Of a DNA stretch of 64,000 nucleotides, positions 5,724 to 64,000 are shown piece by piece. Origin of the DNA: Rugosibacter sp. GTDB taxonomy: Bacteria > Pseudomonadota > Gammaproteobacteria > Burkholderiales > Rhodocyclaceae. The stretch spans positions 1 through 64,000 of the forward strand of contig JAUSMB010000006.1 in NCBI GenBank assembly GCA_030645365.1, read 5' to 3'. Position numbers and translations under genes: made by a program. The stretch's first letter is position 1. Each line of letters begins with the position of its first letter. The notes below the pieces were generated by a model. The model did not search any database. It saw only the letters and a program-made list of their open reading frames with translations, and was not told the DNA's origin.

Positions 5724-7354
5724 TGTCTGTTATTCAATCAGCTGTACATACTCGCAGTGATGAATTCAAGGCGAATGTCTCCGCCATGCGCGCTTTGACC
5801 GATGACCTGCACGAAAAGTCGGCGCTGGTGATACGGGGCGGTTCTGAACAAGCCCGCGTCAAACATCTTGCACGTGGCAAGCTCTTGCCGCGAGAGCGTA
5901 TTGACGCACTGCTTGATCCGGGATCAGCGTTTCTTGAATTTTCCACTCTCGCGGCGTATGGCATGTACGGTGAAAATCAAGGGAATGCCAGTTTGAACAA
6001 CGTGCCGTCTGCTGGAGTAATCACCGGTATTGGCCGCGTGCGTGGCGTAGAGTGCATGATCGTGGCGAATGATGCTACCGTCAAAGGCGGAACCTACTAT
6101 CCGCTGACGGTAAAGAAACATTTGCGGGCGCAAGAAATTGCCCAGCAAAATCGGTTGCCCTGTATTTATCTGGTCGATTCAGGCGGTGCTTTTTTGCCTG
6201 CTCAAGATGATGTGTTTCCGGATCGTGATCACTTCGGTCGCATTTTTTTCAATCAGGCCACCATGAGTGCAGCGGGTATTCCACAAATCGCCGTGGTCAT
6301 GGGTTCGTGCACGGCCGGTGGCGCGTATGTGCCGGCGATGAGTGATGAAAGCATCATTGTTAAAAATCAGGGCACGATTTTTCTGGGCGGCCCGCCACTG
6401 GTGAAAGCCGCCACGGGCGAGGTCGTGAGTATTGAGGATTTGGGTGGCGGAGATGTCCATACGCGCGTCTCTGGCGTGTGTGATCATCTGGCAGACAGTG
6501 ATCACCATGCGCTGTCGATTGCGCGCGGAATCGTGGGTAATCTGAATTGGCAAAAACCGGTGACGCTTGATTTGGCAACACCGGAAGAACCACTGTACGA
6601 CCCGGCTGAATTGCTCGGGGTGATTCCGGCGGACACCAAAAAACCATATGACGTACGTGAAGTCATTGCCCGGCTGGTGGATGGCTCACGCTTTGATGAA
6701 TTCAAAGCACGCTATGGCACAACGCTCGTCACGGGCTTTGCCCGCTTGCACGGTTACCCGATTGGCATTGTGGCCAATAACGGCATTTTGTTTTCGGAGT
6801 CGGCGCTGAAGGGTGCGCATTTCATCGAGCTGTGTGCTCAACGGGGTATTCCGATAGTATTTTTGCAGAACATCACCGGATTTATGGTTGGACGAAAATA
6901 TGAAAACGGCGGCATTGCCAAAGATGGCGCAAAATTGGTCATGGCCGTGTCTAATGCGCAGGTGCCAAAATTTACTATGATTATTGGTGGCTCATTTGGC
7001 GCGGGTAATTACGGTATGTGTGGCCGCGCTTTTTCTCCCCGCATGCTGTGGATGTGGCCCAATGCGCGCATTAGCGTGATGGGTGGCGAGCAGGCGGCGT
7101 CCGTCTTGGCGACGATCAAGCGCGATGGGTTCGATGCCGCAGGAAAATCCTGGAGTGTGGCAGAAGAAATGGCTTTCAAAGAGCCGATTCGGGCGCAATA
7201 TGAAGCTCAAGGACATCCGTATTACGCCACTGCGCGCTTGTGGGACGATGGTGTGATTGACCCAACGCAATCCCGGCAGGTTTTGGCGTTGGGTCTGTCT
7301 GCTGCGCTTAACGCGCCAATTCAGCCCACGCAATTTGGTATTTTTCGGATGTAG
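5723..7354 (+). CDS. methylcrotonoyl-CoA carboxylase, carboxyltransferase (beta) subunit
   Basis: carboxyltransferase family; GTG start preceded by AGGGGG chosen over the upstream ATG at 5699. Confidence 0.92.
5814..5836 (+). repeat. dispersed repeat copy inside MCC beta gene
   Basis: AAAAGTCGGCGCTGGTGATACGG; encodes KSALVIR with no apparent indel. Confidence 0.75.
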
Positions 7355-12533: not shown

Positions 12534-14594
12534 ATGTTCACGAAGCTTCTTATTGCCAATCGTGGCGAAATTGCATGTCGGATCATCAAAACGGCGCGTC
12601 GTATGGGCATCAAGACGGTTGCTGTGTATTCAACGGTAGATGAGCATGCCCGCCATGTGTGCATGGCAGATGAAGCGCTATGGATAGGCGCGGCCTCGCC
12701 TGCGGAATCGTATTTGGCCATCAATAAAATAATTGATGCAGCTAAAGCAAGTGGCGCGCAAGCCATTCATCCTGGCTATGGCTTTCTTTCTGAAAATGCA
12801 GCATTTGCAGAAGCCTGTGTGCAGCATGGGTTGGTGTTTATCGGTCCATCAGCGGCGGCTATTCGCGCCATGGGTTCCAAGTCAGCGGCTAAACGACTGA
12901 TGGAAAAGGCTGATGTCCCGCTGACGCCGGGATATCACGGGGATGAGCAGGCACCGGATTTTTTGCGCCAGCAAGCAAACAAAATTGGGTATCCGGTGCT
13001 CATAAAAGCGGTGGCAGGCGGTGGCGGCAAAGGTATGCGGGTGGTGACCGCAGAAGCCGGGTTTCTGGATGCATTGGCATCTTGTCAGCGTGAGGCCAGC
13101 GCGAGTTTTGGCGATGCACAGGTGCTACTGGAAAAATACTTGCAACCCGCGCGGCATATTGAAGTACAGATTTTTGGCGATAGTCATGGAAATTATCTGT
13201 ATTTGTACGAGCGGGATTGCTCGGTGCAACGTCGCCACCAGAAGGTATTGGAAGAAGCCCCGGCCCCGGGGCTAACGCCTGAGCGTCGCGCGGCTATGGG
13301 CAAAGCGGCCGTGAACGCTGCACGCGCCGTAGGCTATGTGGGTGCGGGCACGGTGGAATTTATTGTTCCGGGCGCCGCATCCGACGGTGAGTTTTACTTC
13401 ATGGAAATGAATACGCGGCTGCAAGTCGAGCATCCGGTGACGGAAATGATTACCGGGTTGGATCTGGTCGAATGGCAATTAAAAGTCGGCGCTGGTGAGA
13501 CGCTGCCTTTGGCGCAAGAGCAGATCACGCTGCGTGGCCATGCGCTTGAAGCACGCATTTACGCCGAAGATCCGGGAACCGGCTTCCTGCCTTCGACAGG
13601 CCGTGTGATTCACTTTGCTTATCCTGCTGAAACGCCCTTTGTTCGTATGGATGCTGGCGTGGCGGCAGGGGATGAAATCACGCCCCACTATGATCCGATG
13701 ATTGCCAAACTGATTGTCTGGGACGATAGCGATAGTGCGCCGCGAGCGCATGCTTGCGCACGCATGCTGCAAGCCTTGGCCGAAGTTGAAATTGTCGGTG
13801 TGGCTAATAATGTTGATTTTCTTTCCCGCCTCGTCGCTTGTCCGGCTTTTGCTGAGGCCAATCTGGATACCGGGTTGATCGAGCGAGAGCAAGCCTTTCT
13901 GTTTCCAGCGCCCGCTGAGCTACCGCTAGAAGTGTGGTTGAGTGCGGCGTTGGCTGAACTTTTACGCAGCCGGAAAGAAGCTGCAAAGAGTGCCGAAAAA
14001 AGTAAAGACCCCTACTCCCCCTGGCATGCGCAAGCAGGTTGGCGTGTGACGGGACAAGCCCAGCAGGCATTGAATTTGCGTTGTGGGGATGTAGAAAAAA
14101 CCATTGTTGCAACAGCCAGCCGCCGAGGTTTTGTATTCGAAATAGCGGCTCAGCCATTGAGTGGGCAACAATTCGGTGGCCAGCGGATAGAGGCAACTGG
14201 CCAGCTGGATGACACAGGAGTATTGCACGCTGATTTTGGTGGCCGACGGTGCACGGTCACGGTGATTCCCGTGGCTGAAAAGCGCCATGTCTTTATGCAC
14301 GGCACATCGCATGTGATGACTTTGCGTGATCCACTGAGTGACACCGGTCAACAAGCGATAGCAGAAGGTAGCGTGATGTCCCCCATGCCGGGAAAAATAA
14401 TTGCGTTACTCGTTACAGCGGGTGAGAAAGTTGCCAAAGGCACGCCCTTGTTGATTCTCGAAGCGATGAAAATGGAGCATACCGTTACCGCACCCACTGA
14501 CGGTATCGTGCAGGATTTTCACTTTGCGGTGGGTGATCCTGTTGCTGAAGGTGTGGTGTTGATGGCGTTTGAAGAAAATTCTGTTGGTATTTAG
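12534..14594 (+). CDS. methylcrotonoyl-CoA carboxylase, biotin carboxylase (alpha) subunit
   Basis: [17 protein letters not shown], biotin carboxylase core, C-terminal biotinyl motif LEAMKMEH. Confidence 0.93.
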   Translation: MFTKLLIANRGEIACRIIKTARRMGIKTVAVYSTVDEHARHVCMADEALWIGAASPAESYLAINKIIDAAKASGAQAIHPGYGFLSENAAFAEACVQHGLVFIGPSAAAIRAMGSKSAAKRLMEKADVPLTPGYHGDEQAPDFLRQQANKIGYPVLIKAVAGGGGKGMRVVTAEAGFLDALASCQREASASFGDAQVLLEKYLQPARHIEVQIFGDSHGNYLYLYERDCSVQRRHQKVLEEAPAPGLTPERRAAMGKAAVNAARAVGYVGAGTVEFIVPGAASDGEFYFMEMNTRLQVEHPVTEMITGLDLVEWQLKVGAGETLPLAQEQITLRGHALEARIYAEDPGTGFLPSTGRVIHFAYPAETPFVRMDAGVAAGDEITPHYDPMIAKLIVWDDSDSAPRAHACARMLQALAEVEIVGVANNVDFLSRLVACPAFAEANLDTGLIEREQAFLFPAPAELPLEVWLSAALAELLRSRKEAAKSAEKSKDPYSPWHAQAGWRVTGQAQQALNLRCGDVEKTIVATASRRGFVFEIAAQPLSGQQFGGQRIEATGQLDDTGVLHADFGGRRCTVTVIPVAEKRHVFMHGTSHVMTLRDPLSDTGQQAIAEGSVMSPMPGKIIALLVTAGEKVAKGTPLLILEAMKMEHTVTAPTDGIVQDFHFAVGDPVAEGVVLMAFEENSVGI
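13481..13502 (+). repeat. dispersed repeat copy inside MCC alpha gene
   Basis: AAAAGTCGGCGCTGGTGAGACG; encodes KVGAGET. Confidence 0.65.
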
Positions 14595-16015: not shown

Positions 16016-16927
16016 ATGACACTCCCCAGCAAAGTTCGAATCGTTGAAGTAGGGCCGCGCGATGGTTTGCAAAACGAAAAACCGTTGATTTCAACCGAGA
16101 TCAAGGTTGAGTTGATTCATCGTTTGGCATCAGCCGGCCTGCGCACGGTTGAAGCGACCGCGTTTGTTTCGCCCATATGGGTGCCACAGATGGCAGATGC
16201 GACGGCGGTTTTTTCTGCCATTCAACCTTTGCCGCTGGTGACTTATCCCGTGCTTACGCCTAACAAGAAGGGTTTTGATGCCGCTGTGGCAGCAGGGGCA
16301 AAAGAAGTCAGCGTATTTAGTGCCGCGTCGGAAACTTTTTCGCAGAAAAATACACATTGCTCGATTAGCGAATCCTTAGAGCGCTGTCGTGCGGTGATAG
16401 AGGCTGCGAAAGCGGAACATATCAAAGTGCGTGGTTATGTTTCCTGTGTGTTGGGTTGCCCTTATGAAGGCGAGATTACGCCGCTGGCCGTTGCCGAGGT
16501 GGCGCGTGCATTGTTTGATATGGGGTGTTATGAAGTGAGTTTGGGTGACACCATCGGCACAGGAACGCCAGAAAAAACCAAGGCGATGCTCGAAGCGGTT
16601 GCGCGGTGGGTGCCATTAAAAAAACTGGCAGGCCATTTTCACGACACCTGGGGCATGGCTATTGCCAATGTGTATGCCTCGCTAGAAACGGGCGTGTCGG
16701 TGTTTGATAGCTCGGTTGCAGGCTTGGGTGGCTGCCCCTACGCACCCGGTGCGCTGGGTAATGTAGCCACTGAGGATGTGGTCTGGTTGCTTCAAGGTTG
16801 TGGCATTGAGTGCGGGGTGGATCTTGACGCGCTGGTTGATGTTGCCGCGTGGATTTCTCACGAGTTGGGCCGTGCGCCTGCATCGCGTGTAGCACGTGCG
16901 ATGCTTGCCCGGCGTAGCATGGCCTGA
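16016..16927 (+). CDS. hydroxymethylglutaryl-CoA lyase
   Basis: [33 protein letters not shown]. Confidence 0.95.
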
Positions 16928-16951
16928 AAAGTCGGCGCTGGCATGACGGCG
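16927..16951 (+). repeat. dispersed repeat copy at gene junction
   Basis: AAAAGTCGGCGCTGGCATGACGGCG; contains the ATG of the next gene. Confidence 0.75.
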
Positions 16952-18979: not shown

Positions 18980-20060
18980 GTTCTTCGAGAATGCGCCTGA
19001 CGGGCGTTGGCAATGCGGCGGTACCCAGTGCCGTTAAATCGAGCCAAAAGAAACCTGCTTCCATGACAATCGGGCGCAAGCTCACACGGCATAACAGTGG
19101 CGTGATGTGCAGGCGAAAATGGGTGAAGATATGTAGAAAAGTCTTGAACCCATCTTTGGACGACGGTGGGGAGGCCGCTAGCACATGGACACCGAATTTT
19201 TTTTCAACATAGGTCGCCGCATTTTCTTCTGCCGGCAATTCGGGCAGAGAGAGCAGGCCGCCCCAGATGCCTAGCGGCGGTCGGGTTTCCAGTAGCACAC
19301 GATTTTCATGCACGATAACCAGCAGCGTGGCGTGACGTTCGGGAGTGATACGGCGCAATTTCTTTTGCGGTAATTCCGCAGTGCGTCCCGTGGCATGTGC
19401 GATGCAAATGTCTGCTAACGGGCAGGCGATGCATTGTGGCCGACTGCGTGTGCATAGCGTAGCGCCCAAATCCATCTGCGCCTGAATGTAGGTGGCCATG
19501 TTTCTGGATAAATCACGCTGCGGTAATTGCTTCGGTAACCGCTTTGGTAACAAATCCTCGGCGTGTTGCCAGAGCCGACTTTCCAGCGCCGCTGTGCCGG
19601 GGATTCCTGCAATGCCGAATACGCGGCACAGGACGCGTTTGACGTTGCCATCCAGAATCGGCACGCGCGCACCAAAACACACCACCGCGATGGCGTTAGC
19701 GGTGGAACGGCCGATGCCGGGCAACTCGGCAATGATTTCCGGTGCTTCAGGAAACATGCCACCATGCCGCGTGATCACCACTTGCGCCGCCGCGTGCAAG
19801 TTGCGCGCGCGGGCGTAATAGCCCAGCCCGCTCCATAGCGGCATGATGTCTTCAACCGATGCAGTCGCCAGGGATTCAAGCGTGGGGAAGCGGGCGAGAA
19901 AACGCTGATAGTAGGGAATCACCGTGACAACCTGCGTTTGCTGCAACATGATTTCCGCGAGCCAGACGCGGTACGGGTCGCGCGTGTTTTGCCAGGGCAG
20001 ATCATGCCGCCCGTGCTGCGCGTGCCAGTGGATGAGGCGGCTAGAAAAACTTTTGCTCAA
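18957..20060 (-). CDS. mutY: A/G-specific adenine glycosylase
   Basis: LPWQNTRDPYRVWLAEIMLQQTQV; HhH; Fe-S cluster cysteines. Confidence 0.96.
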   Translation of the reverse strand: MSKSFSSRLIHWHAQHGRHDLPWQNTRDPYRVWLAEIMLQQTQVVTVIPYYQRFLARFPTLESLATASVEDIMPLWSGLGYYARARNLHAAAQVVITRHGGMFPEAPEIIAELPGIGRSTANAIAVVCFGARVPILDGNVKRVLCRVFGIAGIPGTAALESRLWQHAEDLLPKRLPKQLPQRDLSRNMATYIQAQMDLGATLCTRSRPQCIACPLADICIAHATGRTAELPQKKLRRITPERHATLLVIVHENRVLLETRPPLGIWGGLLSLPELPAEENAATYVEKKFGVHVLAASPPSSKDGFKTFLHIFTHFRLHITPLLCRVSLRPIVMEAGFFWLDLTALGTAALPTPVRRILEELRLSQPA

Positions 20061-23701: not shown

Positions 23702-23746
23702 AAGGGTGGTATTTGCTGCGCGCCGTCTCGTCAGCGCCGACTTTTT
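23702..23746 (-). repeat. dispersed repeat copy, intergenic, extended form
   Basis: AAGGGTGGTATTTGCTGCGCGCCGTCTCGTCAGCGCCGACTTTTT; similarity to 38568-38609 extends beyond the core. Confidence 0.8.
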
Positions 23747-25203: not shown

Positions 25204-25743
25204 TTATTCAAAATAACTACGTGCTTCTTCAAACCGTGCGGCGAACCAGCCGTTGGTCAAGCTGTCGATTCTTACCTTGCCCCGGCTGCTCGGCGCATGG
25301 ATGAAGCGGCCTTCGCCGATGTAGATGCCGACGTGGGAATAGGGTCGGTTCAGCGTATTGAAAAATACCAGATCGCCTGGTTGCATCTGCGCCATGTTCA
25401 CCTTGCGGCCCAGCCGCGCGAGGTTGGCGGCCGAGCCTTGCAGTTTGATGTTGGCCGATTGGTCGAAAACGTAACTCACCATGCCGCTGCAATCCAGCCC
25501 GGCCTCCGGATTTTTGCCGCCAAAACGGTAGCCGGTATTGATCAAGCCGAGTGAAAACAGCACGACTTCGTTGGCTTTTTCGCGCGCGGCACGTGTGTGT
25601 GCCGTATCACCAGCGCCGACTTTTCTTGTCGGCGAGCTGCCGCAAGCGGCAAGCAGCAGAACACAGGGAATTAGCAGGTTGAGCCAGAGTGATCGCATTG
25701 ATGGATATTTGTTCGGGGCGAATTTTTTGCTGGAAGAGTGCAT
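25204..25743 (-). CDS. C40-family NlpC/P60 peptidase, lipoprotein
   Basis: lipobox LLAACGSS; GYRFGGKNPEAGLDCSGMVSYVF; HVGIYIGEGRFIHAPSS. Confidence 0.92.
   Translation of the reverse strand: MHSSSKKFAPNKYPSMRSLWLNLLIPCVLLLAACGSSPTRKVGAGDTAHTRAAREKANEVVLFSLGLINTGYRFGGKNPEAGLDCSGMVSYVFDQSANIKLQGSAANLARLGRKVNMAQMQPGDLVFFNTLNRPYSHVGIYIGEGRFIHAPSSRGKVRIDSLTNGWFAARFEEARSYFE
25601..25624 (-). repeat. dispersed repeat copy in NlpC/P60 linker
   Basis: GCCGTATCACCAGCGCCGACTTTT; encodes KVGAGDTA after the lipobox. Confidence 0.85.
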
Positions 25744-25767: not shown

Positions 25768-26940
25768 TCAACCTGATTCAGGCGTGGTGTAGTGTTTTCC
25801 ATAGCCAGCCATACCAACCAGTAGGCGCACCAGCGCGTAGGCGGCGCTGTTGATTTGCCGCATCAGCCATGAACGATGTTGCGCACCACGGTGAATTTCA
25901 ACAGCATCGCGGCTGATGGCCGAACGCAGATGTGCAGCGAGTTCGAGTGCGAAGGCTTGGTTGCGCGTGATGATGTTTGCTTCACGCGATAGCAGCAAGC
26001 TGAAGGGATCAATGTTCGATGAGCCAACGGTTGCCCATGCTTCATCAATGACGGCAACCTTGGCATGCAAATAGGACGCTTGATATTCAAAAATTTGTAT
26101 GCCAGCGTTAAGCAGGCTGTCGTAAATCGCTTGCATGGCGTGATGCTGCAGCAGATAGTCAGCGCGGCCTTGCAACAGCAGAGTCACTTTGACGCCGCGC
26201 CGGGCGGCTGTTATCAACGCTTCACGAAAGCGCTTGCCGGGTAAAAAGTAGGCATTGGCGAGGATGATTTCCCGCTGCGCGCCGGCCATGGCCTCCAGAT
26301 AGGCATCCTCGATGTCACGTCGGTGACGCAGGTTATCGCGTATCACTAGAGCGGCCTGCATGGTGCCTGCGGGAGGTTGTGGTGGTAGTTGAAAGTCTGG
26401 CGCAGGTGGCCGATACCCCAGATGCGACCAGCGCACGATATGCCATACGTGGCGCATGTCGGCATGTATCGTCGCGACCAGCGGGCCTGCGACACTGACC
26501 GCATAATCAAAACGCGGCGCGGTGATGTCGGTATCGAAATCGCTGATGATGTTAATGCCACCGACGAATGCCAGGCGGCCATCGATGACAGCCAGCTTGC
26601 GATGCAATCGGCGCAAGCGATGCCAGTGCAAGCGGCGCTGTCTAGGCTGGGGACGATAGACCAACAGCTCGACGCCATCGGTGATCAGCGAGACGCCAAG
26701 CCCTGCCGCGAATTCGCGCGCGCCAAAGCCATCGACCAACACACGCACGGCGACACCGCGCTGTGCTGCGCGTGTCAAGGCTGCGGCGACGATGCGGCCG
26801 GTTTCGTCATCGGCGAAGATGTAGGTTTCCAAATGGATTTCGTGCGCCGCGCCATCAATCGCGGCCAGCAGGGCAGGAAAATATTCCGTTCCTGTTGCCA
26901 GGAGTTGCAGTTGGTTGCCCGTTGAAAAGTCGGCGCTCAT
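25768..26940 (-). CDS. clsB: cardiolipin synthase ClsB
   Basis: two PLD motifs (HRKLAVIDGRLAFVGGINI; HAKVAVIDEAWATVGSSNID). Confidence 0.93.
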   Translation of the reverse strand: MSADFSTGNQLQLLATGTEYFPALLAAIDGAAHEIHLETYIFADDETGRIVAAALTRAAQRGVAVRVLVDGFGAREFAAGLGVSLITDGVELLVYRPQPRQRRLHWHRLRRLHRKLAVIDGRLAFVGGINIISDFDTDITAPRFDYAVSVAGPLVATIHADMRHVWHIVRWSHLGYRPPAPDFQLPPQPPAGTMQAALVIRDNLRHRRDIEDAYLEAMAGAQREIILANAYFLPGKRFREALITAARRGVKVTLLLQGRADYLLQHHAMQAIYDSLLNAGIQIFEYQASYLHAKVAVIDEAWATVGSSNIDPFSLLLSREANIITRNQAFALELAAHLRSAISRDAVEIHRGAQHRSWLMRQINSAAYALVRLLVGMAGYGKHYTTPESG

Positions 26941-26947
26941 GGAACGG
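26925..26947 (+). repeat. dispersed repeat copy overlapping the clsB start codon
   Basis: AAAAGTCGGCGCTCATGGAACGG; clsB begins ATGAGCGCCGACTTTTC (MSADF). Confidence 0.75.
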
Positions 26948-26972
26948 TGGCTAAGTGGACACTTGGCGGCGA

Positions 26973-28450: not shown

Positions 28451-28477
28451 AAAAAGTCGGCGCTCACGAGACGGCGA
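28451..28477 (+). repeat. dispersed repeat copy spanning the nadA stop codon
   Basis: AAAAAGTCGGCGCTCACGAGACGGCGA; nadA ends GCC GTC TCG TGA within it. Confidence 0.85.
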
Positions 28478-34734: not shown

Positions 34735-36167
34735 CCAACCCTGTCTGGATTATTGATGACGATCGTTCAATTCGCTGGGTATTGGAAAAGGCGCTCGGCC
34801 GAGAAAATATTCCGGTCAAAAGCTTTGCAATGGCAACTGAAGCGTTGCGTGCACTGGCTGACGAGCAACCACCTGCCGCTTTAATTTCTGATATTCGCAT
34901 GCCGGGGACAGATGGACTGGATTTGCTGCGCCAGGTAAAAATTCATTATCCCGAGTTGCCTGTCATCATCATGACAGCCTATTCTGATCTTGATTCTGCT
35001 GTGGCCGCATTCCAGGGTGGCGCTTTTGAGTATTTGCCCAAACCTTTCGATGTCGATCAGGCGGTGGCATTGGTGCGGCGGGCGCTGGCTGAATCAGTGC
35101 AGCATGGTGTAGCGACCGAAGATGTCGGGGTCATGCCCGAAATTCTGGGGCAAGGTGTCGCCATGCAGGAAGTCTTTCGCGCGATTGGCCGGCTTTCGCA
35201 GTCACTGGCCACAGTGCTCATCAATGGCGAGTCAGGCACGGGTAAAGAGCTTGTGGCGCAAGCGCTTCATCGTCATAGTCCGCGAAAAAATGCACCGTTC
35301 ATCGCGATCAATACAGCAGCGATTCCAAAGGATTTGCTGGAATCCGAACTCTTCGGTCATGAAAAAGGCGCTTTCACGGGGGCTACGGCACAGCGTCGTG
35401 GACGTTTTGAGCAAGCCGAGAATGGCACCTTGTTTCTGGATGAAATTGGCGACATGCCAGCCGAATTGCAAACCCGATTGTTGCGTGTTCTCTCGGATGG
35501 TAATTTTTATCGCGTCGGCGGCCATCAGCCCGTGAAGGCGAATGTGCGTGTCATTGCAGCAACGCATCAGGATTTAGAAGCACGCGTGAGGGACGGCTTG
35601 TTTCGCGAAGACCTGTTTCATCGTTTGAATGTGATTCGCTTACGGCTGCCACCTTTGCGTGAGCGTAGTGACGATATTCCGATTCTGGCGCGCCATTTTT
35701 TGCAAAAGAGTGCACAAGAGCTTGGCGGGGAGCCCAAACGGCTTTCAGATGCGGCACAAAAGTATTTGCAAGGGCTTGAATTTCCAGGCAATGTGCGGCA
35801 ACTGGAGAATCTTTGTCATTGGCTGACGGTCATGGCACCCGGGCAAAGTATTGATGTGGCAGATTTACCGGCGGAGTTACGTGACGCAAGACGTGATCCA
35901 GCCAAAGATTCCGCGCGCCGTGTCGCCAGCGCCGACTGGTTGTCTGCCTTGGCGCGTGAAGCCGATCAGCTATTGGCGAGCGCGCCGGGACAAGTAGCAG
36001 AGCAGCTGACGCGTCAATTCGAATCAACGTTGATTCGCCGCGCGCTGGCGGCTACCAGTGGTCGGCGAATCGAAGCTGCTCAGTTGCTCGGCCTTGGCCG
36101 CAACACCATCACGCGCAAGATTCAGGAGTTGGGTCTGGAAGATGCGCCGATCAAGGGAGAGTCGTGA
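34731..36167 (+). CDS. glnG: nitrogen regulation response regulator NtrC
   Basis: receiver domain, GESGTGKE, GAFTGA, C-terminal HTH LLGLGRNTITRKIQEL. Confidence 0.97.
   Translation: MTNPVWIIDDDRSIRWVLEKALGRENIPVKSFAMATEALRALADEQPPAALISDIRMPGTDGLDLLRQVKIHYPELPVIIMTAYSDLDSAVAAFQGGAFEYLPKPFDVDQAVALVRRALAESVQHGVATEDVGVMPEILGQGVAMQEVFRAIGRLSQSLATVLINGESGTGKELVAQALHRHSPRKNAPFIAINTAAIPKDLLESELFGHEKGAFTGATAQRRGRFEQAENGTLFLDEIGDMPAELQTRLLRVLSDGNFYRVGGHQPVKANVRVIAATHQDLEARVRDGLFREDLFHRLNVIRLRLPPLRERSDDIPILARHFLQKSAQELGGEPKRLSDAAQKYLQGLEFPGNVRQLENLCHWLTVMAPGQSIDVADLPAELRDARRDPAKDSARRVASADWLSALAREADQLLASAPGQVAEQLTRQFESTLIRRALAATSGRRIEAAQLLGLGRNTITRKIQELGLEDAPIKGES
35916..35937 (-). repeat. dispersed repeat copy in NtrC linker
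   Basis: CGCCGTGTCGCCAGCGCCGACT; encodes RRVASAD between AAA+ and HTH domains. Confidence 0.65.
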
Positions 36168-36197: not shown

Positions 36198-37070
36198 ATG
36201 ACGCCAACGCTTGACGCAACGCGTCTGGTCGCTGCACTAGGCCAAGCGTCGCGCCGTTTTGACGTCGATCTGCTGCCGCAATGCGATTCAACCAACTCGA
36301 TGCTGCTGAGCCGCGCCGAGGTAGGCGCCGCCTCGGGCACCGTGTTGGCTGCGACGCTACAAACTGCTGGGCGTGGCCGACGTGGGCGCGAGTGGATTGC
36401 CGCGCCGGGCGACAGCCTCACCTTTTCTCTGCTGTGGAGATTTGCGCCGGGCAGCGTGCCGATTGGCCTTTCACTGGCAGTCGGCGTGGCGGTAGCGCGT
36501 GCCCTGGAAAAAGTTATGCGCAGCAGTATCCAGCCGGACGGCGCTGGTGATACGCCGCAGCGCTTTGAATCCGATCGAAGAGAGTGCGGCGCTGTTTCTG
36601 GAAAGTCCCCTTGGGGTGCGGCGCTCAAGTGGCCTAATGACGTTCTGTATCAGGGCAAAAAACTGGGGGGCATTCTGGTTGAGCTTTTGCCTGGCGCACC
36701 TCATGTGGCGGTTATTGGTATCGGTATCAATCGGCGCCTGCCTGCGGCATTGCCGCATGATGTACGGACGACAGCCGCTGCCTTGGGTGACCATATCGAG
36801 ATCAATGTACTGCTGGCAGCACTGCTGAGCGAGCTCTTGACGGTGCTGGAAAGTTTTGCGATTGCGGGTTTTGCGGCGCTGCGCGCGGACTGGTTGGCGC
36901 GCCATGCATTTCAGGATGCACCGGTCGTGTTGCTGTCCGATTTTTCGCCTCCGAGACATGGCATTTGTCGTGGTGTTGATAAAGATGGTGCGTTGTTGCT
37001 TGAAGTTGATGGCCACATCGAGCGCATTCTCTCTGGTGAAATTTCTTTGCGGGCAGCCACTCCTGTTTAA
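36198..37070 (+). CDS. birA: biotin--[acetyl-CoA-carboxylase] ligase
   Basis: TLQTAGRGRRGREWIAAPGDSL, LKWPNDVLYQGKKLGGILVEL; carries an apparent roughly 30-aa insertion. Confidence 0.94.
   Translation: MTPTLDATRLVAALGQASRRFDVDLLPQCDSTNSMLLSRAEVGAASGTVLAATLQTAGRGRRGREWIAAPGDSLTFSLLWRFAPGSVPIGLSLAVGVAVARALEKVMRSSIQPDGAGDTPQRFESDRRECGAVSGKSPWGAALKWPNDVLYQGKKLGGILVELLPGAPHVAVIGIGINRRLPAALPHDVRTTAAALGDHIEINVLLAALLSELLTVLESFAIAGFAALRADWLARHAFQDAPVVLLSDFSPPRHGICRGVDKDGALLLEVDGHIERILSGEISLRAATPV
36536..36623 (+). repeat. long two-block form of the dispersed repeat, in frame within birA
   Basis: GACGGCGCTGGTGATACGCCGC ... AAGTCCCCTTGGGGTGCGGCG; encodes GAGDTP...SPWGAA. Confidence 0.85.
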
Positions 37071-37969: not shown

Positions 37970-38797
37970 TTATTGATTCCGTAGTGATTTCATATGCATC
38001 AGCCGATGCGCGACGGCATGGTGCGCATGCGCTGCGAGGTGTCGCCGATCAAGGCCATCAGGCGTGAGTGCTGGCAAGGGTTCAAGTTGTGCGATCAGTC
38101 CGGCGCTAGCGGCAATCGACCACAGGCAGCTGACCAGGGTCATGTCACCCACATAATCTGCGGCATGGCTGGGCTGGTGGCTGTGTGCATCAAAATAACT
38201 CAGGGCCAGCGGCATCACGGGCGCGGTGGCATCAATTGCGCTTTGGAATAACGCGCTGTGAAACGGCTGCACGGTGTGGCCATCGCTGGTAGTGCCTTCA
38301 GGAAACACGGCGATGAGTTGCCCTGCACGTAATTGGCTGACCAGTTGGTCGCGGGTGGCTTGCGCTGCGCGGCGTGAACCACGCTGCATGAAAATGGTGT
38401 CGGTATGTTGGCTGAGCCAGCCGATTAGCGGCCAGCCACGCACATCATCCTTGGAAACAAATGCCGCTGGCGCCCAGGCGTTGATGACGAAAATGTCGAG
38501 GAAAGAAATATGGTTGGCGACCAGCAGGCCGACTGGATGGGCTGCCATTGCGTTATTCGCCGCACCCCAAGGGTACTTGCTTCGCGGCGTATCACCAGCG
38601 CCGACTTTTAAGCGGATACCCAACACCGTAAGGAGCTGCCGCGACCAGCGCTGTTTGAGAGCCAGGCGGGTGTCTTGTTTGATGAATGGATAAATCAGCG
38701 CGACAGTCAGAATACCGCTTGTCAGATGCAGCGCAGTACGACTTAGGCGGAATATTGCCCGCAGATTTCCAGCAGATTGTGCCTGTGGTGTTGCCAT
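37970..38797 (-). CDS. lysophospholipid acyltransferase family protein
   Basis: VANHISFLDIFVI (NHXXXXD-type), VFPEGTTSDG; carries the repeat-derived KVGAGDTPRSKYPWGAA. Confidence 0.9.
   Translation of the reverse strand: MATPQAQSAGNLRAIFRLSRTALHLTSGILTVALIYPFIKQDTRLALKQRWSRQLLTVLGIRLKVGAGDTPRSKYPWGAANNAMAAHPVGLLVANHISFLDIFVINAWAPAAFVSKDDVRGWPLIGWLSQHTDTIFMQRGSRRAAQATRDQLVSQLRAGQLIAVFPEGTTSDGHTVQPFHSALFQSAIDATAPVMPLALSYFDAHSHQPSHAADYVGDMTLVSCLWSIAASAGLIAQLEPLPALTPDGLDRRHLAAHAHHAVAHRLMHMKSLRNQ
38559..38609 (-). repeat. long two-block form of the dispersed repeat, in frame within the acyltransferase gene
   Basis: GCCGCACCCCAAGGGTACTTGCTTCGCGGCGTATCACCAGCGCCGACTTTT. Confidence 0.9.
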
Positions 38798-43622: not shown

Positions 43623-44111
43623 TCAGCTGATCACGAACAGTGGCTGGCCGTATTCCACAGCCTGACCATTTTCGGCCAGGATAGCGGTGACAGTGCCAGA
43701 GATGTCGGATTCGATTTCATTCATTAATTTCATGGCTTCGATAATGCAGAGTGTTTGTCCGGCTTTAACCGCTTGTCCAACCTCGACAAACGAGGGTGAG
43801 TCCGGACCACTGGCGCGATAAAAAGTGCCTACCATCGGGGCTTTGAGCTTATGACCTGTATCAACTGCTGCTGTTGCGCTGCTTGCGGCAGCAGAAGTCG
43901 GCGCTGGTGACACGGCGGCAGAGGGATTATCACTGAACATTGGATTGCCCTGTCCTGCGGTATTGGCCATGGGCATGCTGACCATCGTGGTTTGCTGTGT
44001 GGGCAAGTGTTTGGCGATGCGAATTTTTTCTTCGCCTTCGCTGATTTCAAGCTCGGAAATGCCGGAGTTCTGTACAAGATCAATCAAGGTCTTGAGTTTT
44101 CTCAGGTCCAT
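43623..44111 (-). CDS. accB: acetyl-CoA carboxylase biotin carboxyl carrier protein
   Basis: [32 protein letters not shown]; biotinyl motif [11 protein letters not shown]. Confidence 0.97.
43893..43917 (+). repeat. dispersed repeat copy in accB linker
   Basis: AGAAGTCGGCGCTGGTGACACGGCG; encodes AVSPAPTS in the Ala/Pro linker. Confidence 0.75.
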
Positions 44112-55423: not shown

Positions 55424-56338
55424 TCAAGCTGCGGCAAGTAATGCACCTTTCATTTTTTGGAGTGCTTTAGCCTCGATCTGGCGGATACGTTCGGCTGAAA
55501 CACCATACTCCGTGGCAAGTTCATGCAACGTTGCAACGGAATCCTCCTCGTGTACCAACCAGCGGCGCTGAATAATTTCACGGCTACGCGCATCAAGGCT
55601 AGCCAAAGCGCCTTGCAACCCTTCCTCTTGCAAGTGATCAAATTCCTTACGCTCAAGCATGGCTATAGGCTCACCACAACTGTCAGCAGTAAGATAGGCA
55701 ATCGGGGCAAAACGATCTTCATCGTCGTCAGAGGTCGGCTCTAGTGATACGTCGGCACCCGTGAAGCGGGTTTCCATCTCGATGACTTCTTCCGGCTTGA
55801 CGCCTAGCCGTTGCGCGATCATGTTTACGCCATCGACATCCAGCGTGCCAAAATTTCGTTGTGAACCGGGTAGTGATTCATCTTGCTGCGCTAATGATGC
55901 CTTGATACTACGCAAGTTGAAAAACAGTTTTCGCTGCGCCTTGGTCGTGGCAATTTTCACAAGCCGCCAGTTTTTGATGATGTACTCATGCATCTCGGCC
56001 TTGATCCAGTGCATAGCAAAAGAAACCAGCCGTACCCCACGGTTTGGATCGAAACGCTTCACTGCTTTCATCAAGCCGATATTGCCTTCCTGAATCAAAT
56101 CAGCGTGAGGCAGGCCATAGCCTAGATAGCCGCGAGCAATCGCAATGACTAACCGCAAATGGGAGGTCACTAAAGCCCGTGCCGCTTCGATATCGCCTTT
56201 TTCGGCCAAGCGACGTGCCAAGGCAAGCTCTTCTGCTTCGCTAAGCATAGGCATACGATTCGCGGCTGAAATATAAGCCTCGATACTTCCGCTACCGGAA
56301 ATGGTTGGAAACTGCTGGTGAGATAACGCGTAAGCCAT
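55424..56338 (-). CDS. rpoH: RNA polymerase sigma factor RpoH (sigma32)
   Basis: region 2 HLRLVIAIARGYLGYGLPHADLIQEGNIGLMKAVKRFDPNRG; QRKLFFNLR RpoH box. Confidence 0.98.
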   Translation of the reverse strand: MAYALSHQQFPTISGSGSIEAYISAANRMPMLSEAEELALARRLAEKGDIEAARALVTSHLRLVIAIARGYLGYGLPHADLIQEGNIGLMKAVKRFDPNRGVRLVSFAMHWIKAEMHEYIIKNWRLVKIATTKAQRKLFFNLRSIKASLAQQDESLPGSQRNFGTLDVDGVNMIAQRLGVKPEEVIEMETRFTGADVSLEPTSDDDEDRFAPIAYLTADSCGEPIAMLERKEFDHLQEEGLQGALASLDARSREIIQRRWLVHEEDSVATLHELATEYGVSAERIRQIEAKALQKMKGALLAAA

Positions 56339-58004: not shown

Positions 58005-58110
58005 GAGTCGAAAGGGTTTGTAGGGATGTTACGCAGATGGCCAAGTGTGACGATCAAGTTGAGGACAGAGTTTACCGCAGAGTTTACTGTCTCCTGCGAC
58101 ACCTTACGCG

Positions 58111-58134
58111 CCGTATCACCAAAGCCGACTTTAT
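58111..58134 (-). repeat. dispersed repeat copy, intergenic
   Basis: CGCCGTATCACCAAAGCCGACTTT. Confidence 0.8.
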
Positions 58135-61662: not shown

Positions 61663-63048
61663 ATGAAATTGCCTATTTGCCTTGCCATGTTGTTATTTGT
61701 CGGCGTATCACCAGCGCCGACTTTTGCTAATCCGGTGCTCAATACATTTGAAACCACTTTATCCAATGGGCTGCGTGTGATCGTCAAAGAAGATCATCGC
61801 GCGCCCACGGTAGTGCACATGGTTTGGTATCGCGCCGGTAGCATGGACGAAAAAGATGGCACATCCGGCGTAGCGCATGTGCTGGAACATTTAATGTTCA
61901 AAGGCACCAAGCGATTGCCCTCAGGCGAATTCAACCAGCGCGTGGCTGCCGCAGGTGGACAGGATAATGCGTTTACTTCCTACGACTACACCGCATATTT
62001 TCAAATTATTCCCAAGGCGGCATTGCCCGAAATGATGCAGCTTGAAGCCGATCGAATGGCGAATCTGGTGTTTACGCCGGCGGAGTTTGCTTCGGAAATC
62101 AAAGTGGTGATGGAAGAGCGTCGTTTGCGCACGGATGATAATCCACAGGCGCAGGTGTTTGAGGCAGCCCGTGGTGCCGCGTTTTTAGCGCACCCTTATC
62201 GTCGCCCGATCATCGGCTGGATGAATGATCTGGAACATCTGACCTGGCAAGATGCACATCATTGGTATACCCAGTGGTACACGCCAAGCAATGCGTATGT
62301 CGTAGTGGTAGGCGATGTCAATCACAAGGAAGTATTCCGGTGGGCGAAAAAGTATTACGGTGTGCATAAAGCCCGCGCGCTGCCTGAACGTAAACCACAG
62401 AATGAGCCGGAACAAAAAGGCTGGCGACGTGTGAGCGTCAAGGCACCGGCCAAGTTACCCTACCTTTCCATGCTTTGGAAAGTGCCGCGTATGAATGATG
62501 TGCATAAAGACCGTGATCCTTATGCGCTAGAAGTTCTCGCCGCGATTCTGGATGGCAATGACACGTCGCGGTTGGCCAAGAATCTGGTGCGGGGTGGGCG
62601 TATTGCGCAATCCGCCGGTGCAGGTTATGACGGCACGGTGCGTGGTGAAGCAACCTTTATGATAGATGGCCAACCGACAGAGGGGCGCAGTGTGGCCGAG
62701 TTAGAGGCGGCCTTGCGCGCAGAAATCACCCGCATCCAAGTGGCTGGAATTACCCCGGAAGAACTATCTCGCGTGAAGATCCAGCTCATTGCCGGACAAA
62801 CCTACAAGCGGGATTCGCTCATGGCGCAGGCAATGGAAATTGGCGGCATGGAGGCTGTTGGCTTGTCGTGGCGCGACGTTGATTCGCTGGTTGATCAACT
62901 CAAAGGCGTTACCGCAGCAGAAGTTCAGGCCGTCGCTCAAAAATATTTCAAGGATGACGCATTGACCATTACCGTACTTGACCCGCAGCCGATGGATGCC
63001 GCTGATCCCAAGCCTTCCGCAAACCCTGCGATTAAGACGCTGCATTAA
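61663..63048 (+). CDS. M16 family zinc metallopeptidase
   Basis: HVLEHLMFKGT (HXXEH); signal peptide; ATG at 61663. Confidence 0.94.
   Translation: MKLPICLAMLLFVGVSPAPTFANPVLNTFETTLSNGLRVIVKEDHRAPTVVHMVWYRAGSMDEKDGTSGVAHVLEHLMFKGTKRLPSGEFNQRVAAAGGQDNAFTSYDYTAYFQIIPKAALPEMMQLEADRMANLVFTPAEFASEIKVVMEERRLRTDDNPQAQVFEAARGAAFLAHPYRRPIIGWMNDLEHLTWQDAHHWYTQWYTPSNAYVVVVGDVNHKEVFRWAKKYYGVHKARALPERKPQNEPEQKGWRRVSVKAPAKLPYLSMLWKVPRMNDVHKDRDPYALEVLAAILDGNDTSRLAKNLVRGGRIAQSAGAGYDGTVRGEATFMIDGQPTEGRSVAELEAALRAEITRIQVAGITPEELSRVKIQLIAGQTYKRDSLMAQAMEIGGMEAVGLSWRDVDSLVDQLKGVTAAEVQAVAQKYFKDDALTITVLDPQPMDAADPKPSANPAIKTLH
61701..61725 (-). repeat. dispersed repeat copy in signal-peptide region of M16 peptidase
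   Basis: CGGCGTATCACCAGCGCCGACTTTT; encodes GVSPAPTF at the c-region/cleavage site. Confidence 0.9.
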
Positions 63049-63107: not shown

Positions 63108-64000
63108 ATGACAATGAAGAGGCATTTTTTGAAAACCCTTTTTTCTTTTCTTGCGCTTGCGCTTTTTTCCGCAGTCGCTTCTGCGGGCGTAAAAATAGAA
63201 CACTGGACGACTGCTTCCGGCGCACGTGTGTATTTCGTTGAAACCCGTGGTGTGCCGATGCTCGATGTGCAACTCGATTTTGCTGCGGGCAATGTGTATT
63301 CGGTGCCAGACAAAGCCGGGTTACCGAGCCTCACACGCAGCTTGCTGGAATCTGGTGCGGGCGATCTGGACGAAGAAAAGTTAGCCGAACGCTTGACGGA
63401 TACCGGCGCGCAGCTCAGTGGCCGAGTTGATAACGACCGTGCCAGTGTGGCGCTACGCACGTTGTCTGCAAAACCGGAGCGAGATGCCGCGTTAACACTC
63501 ATGCACACCGTATTGTCAGCGCCGACTTTTCCACAAGCCGCGCTGACGCGTGAAAAAGAACGCAGCATCGCCGCCATCCGTGAAGCGGACACGCAGCCGG
63601 ATGCGATCGTCGCCAAGCGATTTGCCGCAGCGATTTATCCTGCGCATCCCTATGGCGTCAGCGCGACAGTCGAGAGTGTGGCTGCCATCACGCGGCAAGA
63701 TCTTATCGATTTTTATCAGCAACACTACGCAGCCAAACACGCGACGATCTCTCTCATTGGCGATATTTCGCGCAGCGAAGCGGAAGCTATCGCTAATCAG
63801 CTATCGCAGGCCCTGCCCGCTGGAGGTGCGTCCGTTACCTTGCCGCCTGTCACGTTGCCAAAAAGTCAGATAATTAAAGTCGCGCATCCTGCTGCGCAAA
63901 GCCACATACAGATCGGGCTACCCGCTGTGCGGCGTGGCGATGCGGATTACTTTGCCCTGCTGGTCGGCAATTACAGTTTGGGCGGTGGTGGATTTGCCTC
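63108..64000 (+). CDS. second M16 family peptidase, truncated by window end
   Basis: MTMKRHFLKTLFSFLALALFSAVASAGVKIEHWTTASGARVYFVETRGVPMLDVQLDFAAG; open to window end, not in the ORF track. Confidence 0.92.
   Translation, partial: MTMKRHFLKTLFSFLALALFSAVASAGVKIEHWTTASGARVYFVETRGVPMLDVQLDFAAGNVYSVPDKAGLPSLTRSLLESGAGDLDEEKLAERLTDTGAQLSGRVDNDRASVALRTLSAKPERDAALTLMHTVLSAPTFPQAALTREKERSIAAIREADTQPDAIVAKRFAAAIYPAHPYGVSATVESVAAITRQDLIDFYQQHYAAKHATISLIGDISRSEAEAIANQLSQALPAGGASVTLPPVTLPKSQIIKVAHPAAQSHIQIGLPAVRRGDADYFALLVGNYSLGGGGFA
63508..63530 (-). repeat. dispersed repeat copy inside second M16 gene
   Basis: CCGTATTGTCAGCGCCGACTTTT; encodes TVLSAPTF. Confidence 0.7.

Follow-up and report, generated by a model that had tools for sequence, protein, structure and literature searches.

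The locus raises a simple question: why should the end of a signal peptide be spelled by a DNA sequence that recurs, with few changes, across a bacterial chromosome? The gene concerned encodes an M16 (insulinase-type) peptidase near the end of the window, by which we mean the whole 64,000-nucleotide stretch of Rugosibacter sp. DNA that was analysed, and the recurrent sequence is a motif of 25 bp. We ask here whether the motif belongs to the protein or to the DNA, where else it is found, and what kind of genomic signal it is likely to be.

The motif copy in the M16 signal peptide

The open reading frame is called from an ATG at 61663, and its codons 14-21 (61702-61725; GGC GTA TCA CCA GCG CCG ACT TTT) read GVSPAPTF, which stops directly ahead of the likely signal-peptidase site, placed on reading the sequence between TFA and NP. 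The first-pass annotation had assigned the repeat at 61701-61725 to the c-region of an M16 signal peptide, and the codon positions together with the Pfam M16 assignment uphold this. It had also described the tandem paralogue that begins at 63108 as having an ordinary signal peptide, which it has (MTMKRHFLKTLFSFLALALFSAVASA); the paralogue's own motif copy, on which the annotation is silent, sits further in, at 63507-63530. The 61701-61725 copy contains a 7-bp perfect inverted repeat (GTCGGCG...CGCCGAC) that arises from its sole deviation from the consensus, a G for C at 61703, and the motif itself is therefore non-palindromic. A hairpin or terminator role was rejected, since the inverted repeat is private to the M16 copy and there are no inverted pairs among the copies.

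Among named orthologues, those nearest to the M16 protein come from Rugosibacter MAGs (87-95% identity). Across the aligned orthologues of motif-bearing relatives, which extend down to ~70% identity and include Rugosibacter, UBA5602, Sulfuritalea and others, the peptide AVSPAPTFANP and close variants of it keep the same register, and the motif-free orthologues of Azonexus and Dechloromonas carry LSTAAFANP-type ends with a length change of at most two codons, so the copy that the annotation had called an insertion was not recently inserted. The annotation would have been refuted by motif-free orthologues sharing the GVSPAPTF residues, and it passed this test, since those of Azonexus and Dechloromonas lack VSPAPTF. 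One more distant motif-free orthologue (L062) reads AAVSPAASANP; part of the peptide can thus exist without the motif, which suggests that the site was already permissive before the motif was there. At the signal peptidase site, Ala at -1 and a small residue at -3 are retained across the clade, and judging by these residues we see no sign of the altered processing that had been proposed.

The codons themselves are more telling. Among 12 M16 genes of the clade, the 4-fold sites inside the motif are identical in most (CCA 11/12, GCG 9/12, CCG 12/12, ACT 11/12; the GTA codon is variable), against a mean 4-fold-site identity of 0.64 outside the motif in the rest of the gene. Conservation therefore acts at the DNA level, and its cause is a genome-wide DNA motif rather than selection on the signal peptide; the M16 site is merely a permissive, tolerated location for one motif copy. 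The copy inside the paralogue shows no gap against any of the listed outgroups, and its codons TCA GCG CCG ACT TTT are retained in many clade members down to ~56% protein identity, which indicates that the motif arose there by substitution and has been maintained at the DNA level. Most other aligned outgroup orthologues are also gapless across the motif copies, so that these too arose by substitution and not by insertion.

Anatomy, abundance and placement of the motif

The consensus was drawn from the copies in 464 kb, made up of the window and 20 stretches of a closed relative (G007), and reads YGCCGTHTCRCCAGCGCCGACTTTT on one strand and AAAAGTCGGCGCTGGYGADACGGCR on the other, with A or G at position 8 in Rugosibacter. 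The motif holds ~30 bits of information, which falls to background directly beyond the 25 bp, where the flanks are random. With 18 of the 24 consensus bases as the minimum match, the 464 kb contain 86 copies and a Markov-shuffled control 0; 16 of the copies lie within the window (Table 1). Searching the window's own genome with an exact 23-mer and at most three mismatches gave 141 matches, and a 17-mer with at most one mismatch gave 287, the reversed control giving 0 in both cases. In G007 the density outside two deserts, described below, averages one copy in every 4.8 kb, equivalent to ~570 copies.

Table 1. M16 genes and motif copies in the window (match: consensus bases matched)
Feature	Position	Strand	Match	Remarks
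M16 (insulinase-type) peptidase with signal peptide	61663..63048	+		461 aa; ORF call, Pfam PF00675 + PF05193
Motif copy in M16 signal peptide	61701..61725	+	23/24	GVSPAPTF
Second M16 peptidase, truncated by window end	63108..64000	+		ORF call, Pfam
Motif copy inside tandem M16 paralogue	63507..63530	+		TVLSAPTF; gapless in outgroups
Intergenic copy, between ftsE-like and PHB depolymerase genes	58110..58133	+	21/24	
Genic copy	55730..55753	-	19/24	gapless against most motif-free orthologues
Genic copy	43893..43916	-	22/24	AVSPAPTS
Genic copy	38586..38609	+	23/24	KVGAGDT frame
Genic copy	36533..36556	-	18/24	
Genic copy	35917..35940	+	20/24	
Gene-edge copy	28452..28475	-	20/24	
Gene-edge copy	26925..26948	-	19/24	
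Genic copy	25601..25624	+	24/24	KVGAGDTA
Intergenic copy	23722..23745	+	21/24	
Genic copy	19560..19583	+	18/24	
Gene-end copy	16927..16950	-	20/24	
Genic copy	13481..13504	-	21/24	KVGAGETL
Genic copy	5814..5837	-	23/24	KSALVIR

By the gene model used for the 464 kb, 59 of the 86 copies are genic and the other 27 intergenic or at the edge of a gene (60 and 26 once corrected, as the model mis-trimmed the M16 start and scored its copy, at 61702, as intergenic). Genic copies occupy all six reading frames with one clear favourite, read as KVGAGDT in 27 of 59 cases (p = 2e-7), and the motif accounts for odd peptides such as GVSPAPTF and KVGAGDTA that recur in unrelated proteins. With only 10.6% of the DNA non-coding, the 27 copies outside or at the edges of genes amount to an enrichment (p = 1e-7). 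An intragenic bias has been described for uptake sequences (PMC2346458) and matches the placement of the motif.

The GC skew of G007 switches sign at about 0 and 1.5 Mb. Exact copies in this genome lie in both orientations and chromosome-wide, and divide 47:31 by replichore strand (p = 0.09), so that any replichore polarity is weak; strict chromosome polarity was rejected on the mixed strands returned by the exact-match search of that genome. We saw no clustering of copies at ter or ori in G007, and no inverted-pair terminators, the one pair within 150 bp being on the same strand.

Distribution among genomes and in acquired DNA

Among 200 genomes of the family, a core 14-mer of the motif is abundant in six genera (g1, g2, g9, g20, g63 and g71), reaching 173-255 copies per genome in g1 (Rugosibacter), and all other family genomes have 0-8 copies each. 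Outside the family, 300 genomes of the order gave scattered matches only (1-3 per genome), and six motif-poor relatives hold 0-2 copies in 60-80 kb each. Distinct variants of the motif go with different genera; one genome (G016) prefers CGCCGTccCGCCAGCaCCGACTTTT and another (G156) prefers tGCCGTCccGCC... / tGCCGTCccGCCAGCGCCGACTTTT. In 60 kb of a further genome (G132; L309-L311), enrichment was also seen for another repeated word, around GAAGAAGCCTGTAG.

The two deserts of G007 differ in content. The larger (942,896-1,066,138; 123 kb; L360-L365, L126) has 0 copies where ~26 are expected and encodes an integrase, ParB, a BREX-type set (PglZ, DUF6079, N6/N4 methylase) and F-type conjugation proteins (TraC, TraK, TraN, TraG, TrbI); it is likely an ICE carrying a phage-defence system. 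The smaller (60,429-140,782; 80 kb; L367-L371) has 0 copies against ~17 expected and encodes a mercuric-reductase-like protein, a lambda-type terminase and portal, and type III restriction, at a GC content of ~0.58-0.66 per 20-kb stretch versus ~0.545 in the sampled stretches; it is a composite island with a prophage. Poisson probabilities for the deserts, in which ~43 copies are expected in total, are 6e-12 (123 kb) and 5e-8 (80 kb), values that are indicative only, as the motifs themselves served to set the boundaries. Similar reasoning has been applied in Neisseriaceae, where ICEs were located by DUS distribution (PMC7371117). Two more 20-kb stretches of G007 are without copies, L123 (580001-600000) and L132 (1885001-1905000), the latter encoding two AcrB-type pumps. 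In the sampled DNA, L130:60-2515 holds 38 repeats of period ~66 bp with a repeat containing GTTCCGGTCAGAGCGCAAATCCCAATCTGCTAAAGT, by appearance a CRISPR array.

The rare copies in motif-poor genomes cluster in loci of mobile or defence type, often in one orientation. These loci (L343-L346 and L350-L354, in G237, G088, G033, G162, G030, G224, G399 and G072) include PriCT-2/DUF3987 primase-helicases, type III restriction and SIR2-like genes, with as many as 5 copies within 11 kb. Most simply read, such elements would once have resided in motif-bearing hosts and then moved. In IMG/VR, 66 stretches carry the motif (L237-L302), six of them with two copies, and these may be phages or prophages of the motif clade carrying its tag. 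USS in phages have been argued to reflect residence in hosts, phages carrying USS according to coevolution time (PMC6776037).

An uptake-sequence reading, its alternatives and known systems

Abundance, sharp limits, occurrence on both strands, frame bias, intergenic enrichment, origin by substitution, the existence of dialects and absence from mobile DNA make up, in combination, the pattern of an uptake sequence, as it is found in Neisseriaceae and Pasteurellaceae (PMC2346458, PMC3630211, PMC6776037, PMC7371117). On this pattern the motif is probably an uptake signal of the DUS/USS kind, the recognition sequence of a Rhodocyclaceae clade; with a little more reserve, we also favour the view that it would be a third, independently evolved system of this sort, belonging to Rhodocyclaceae and having a contiguous 25-bp recognition sequence and several dialects. 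Both the role in DNA uptake and the existence of a receptor are what we infer from the pattern. To our knowledge, uptake tags are known only in two families, those of Neisseria and Haemophilus. In the open literature we found no report that ties uptake sequences to Rhodocyclaceae, Rhodocyclales or Sulfuritalea, or that prints the motif in such a context, and a search there for the motif's sequence words returned plant papers only.

Under the uptake reading, a competence pilus or receptor would prefer motif-carrying DNA, and self-DNA, once imported, would recombine. Alleles chancing to hold a better motif would be imported more often, and point mutation together with biased recombination would let copies build up at any site whose protein or regulatory setting allows one. 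Two properties of the motif count against this reading: it is longer than either the DUS, at 10-13 nt, or the USS core, and it has fewer copies than the ~1,500 reported for Neisseria. So do the two further copy-free stretches of G007 (L123 and L132) and the drawing of the desert boundaries from motif positions. The copies in mobile loci of motif-poor genomes also require the uptake reading to make an extra assumption, namely transfer from motif-bearing hosts.

Competence machinery is present, comprising ComEC, DprA, a ComEA-type HHH protein and some twelve proteins resembling type IV pilins. Since competence genes are equally present in motif-free relatives (ComEC in 13/13 of those tested, and in all six motif-poor relatives tested), they do not discriminate with respect to the motif. 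A comparison of the pilins yielded no clade-specific receptor, and no ComP orthologue was identified; one pilin (G000 C61, L177) was considered as a clade-restricted candidate and rejected on being found in 162/200 family genomes. This large, family-wide pilin-like protein (L177; L181, G007:C1:1190789-1191394) shows just 58% identity between two genomes of Rugosibacter, compared with 87-95% for M16 among Rugosibacter, and would be a hypervariable surface protein.

Several other explanations can be offered for a dispersed DNA motif. The best of them, although we consider it unlikely, is that the motif is bound inside the cell by a chromosome organiser or some other DNA-binding protein (matS-, KOPS- or Noc/SlmA-like, or a global regulator). 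A long, information-rich motif spread across the chromosome would suit such a protein, selection would here too act at the DNA level, and reduced density in acquired DNA could follow. The copies, however, show neither clustering at ter or ori nor strict polarity, and KOPS and matS differ from the motif in just these respects, the motif being neither strictly polar nor confined to the terminus; ~570 mostly genic copies are moreover too many and misplaced for regulators, and the dialects drift.

More doubtful again is a Chi-like recombination hotspot read by RecBCD/AddAB in repair. Chi in E. coli is GCTGGTGG, and Chi sites are 5-8 bp long and biased to one strand of each replichore. The reverse complement of the motif contains GCTGGTGA, one base off the E. 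coli sequence, and the density of about one per 5 kb and the weak excess on one replichore strand (47:31) are similar, but the motif is conserved over 25 bp with sharp edges, far past 5-8 bp, its strand bias is not significant, it is limited to a clade and absent from most of the family, and the G/A freedom at position 8 falls within the Chi-like part.

A miniature mobile repeat of the MITE or REP type, or a mobile-element recombination site, inserted into genes including the M16 signal peptide, seems very improbable. Like such elements the motif is short and dispersed, in motif-poor genomes it forms clusters, often of one orientation, at mobile and defence loci, and it occurs in the 66 IMG/VR stretches; unlike them it is non-palindromic, mostly intragenic and without conserved flanks, neither the ICE-like nor the prophage region of G007 has a copy, and the gapless outgroup alignments, of the M16 paralogue and others, speak for substitution. 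Ordinary protein constraint, in which AVSPAPTF would be favoured as a signal-peptide end and DNA identity would follow from codon usage, can call on residues that suit a c-region and on the motif-free AAVSPAASANP, but is contradicted by the same 25 bp in all six frames and between genes, and by synonymous sites far more conserved inside the motif than in the rest of the M16 gene, so that we give it practically no credence.

If the uptake reading is true, a third case, in environmental bacteria, would provide a test for the origin of uptake specificity (molecular drive versus selection for sex with kin) and would imply an undiscovered long-footprint DNA receptor. The motif would also be a natural watermark for tracing gene flow, showing which mobile and defence loci lived in the clade before moving to relatives.

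Of the two known systems, the DUS of Neisseriaceae (receptor ComP) belong to another family and are GCCGTCTGAA-type sequences of 10-13 nt, unrelated to the 25-bp motif, with which they have only the CTG triplet in common; the motif also lacks inverted-pair terminators and an identified ComP orthologue. They resemble it in their hundreds to thousands of non-palindromic copies on both strands, in and between genes, in having dialects, which for the DUS follow phylogeny (PMC3630211), and in being atypical in ICEs (PMC7371117). The USS of Pasteurellaceae, again of another proteobacterial family, differ in sequence (AAAAGTCGGCGCTGG...) and consist of a core plus an AT-rich tail rather than a contiguous 25 bp. 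Their predicted receptor is ComN/PpdA. The USS core, AAGTGCGGT or ACAAGCGGT, is not matched by the motif, which has AAAAGTCGGCG instead. In three respects the USS are nonetheless alike: they have a longer extended motif, eHin-USS AAAGTGCGGTCAATTTT (PMC12616744), they favour one orientation within reading frames (PMC2346458), and phages carry them in line with coevolution time (PMC6776037).
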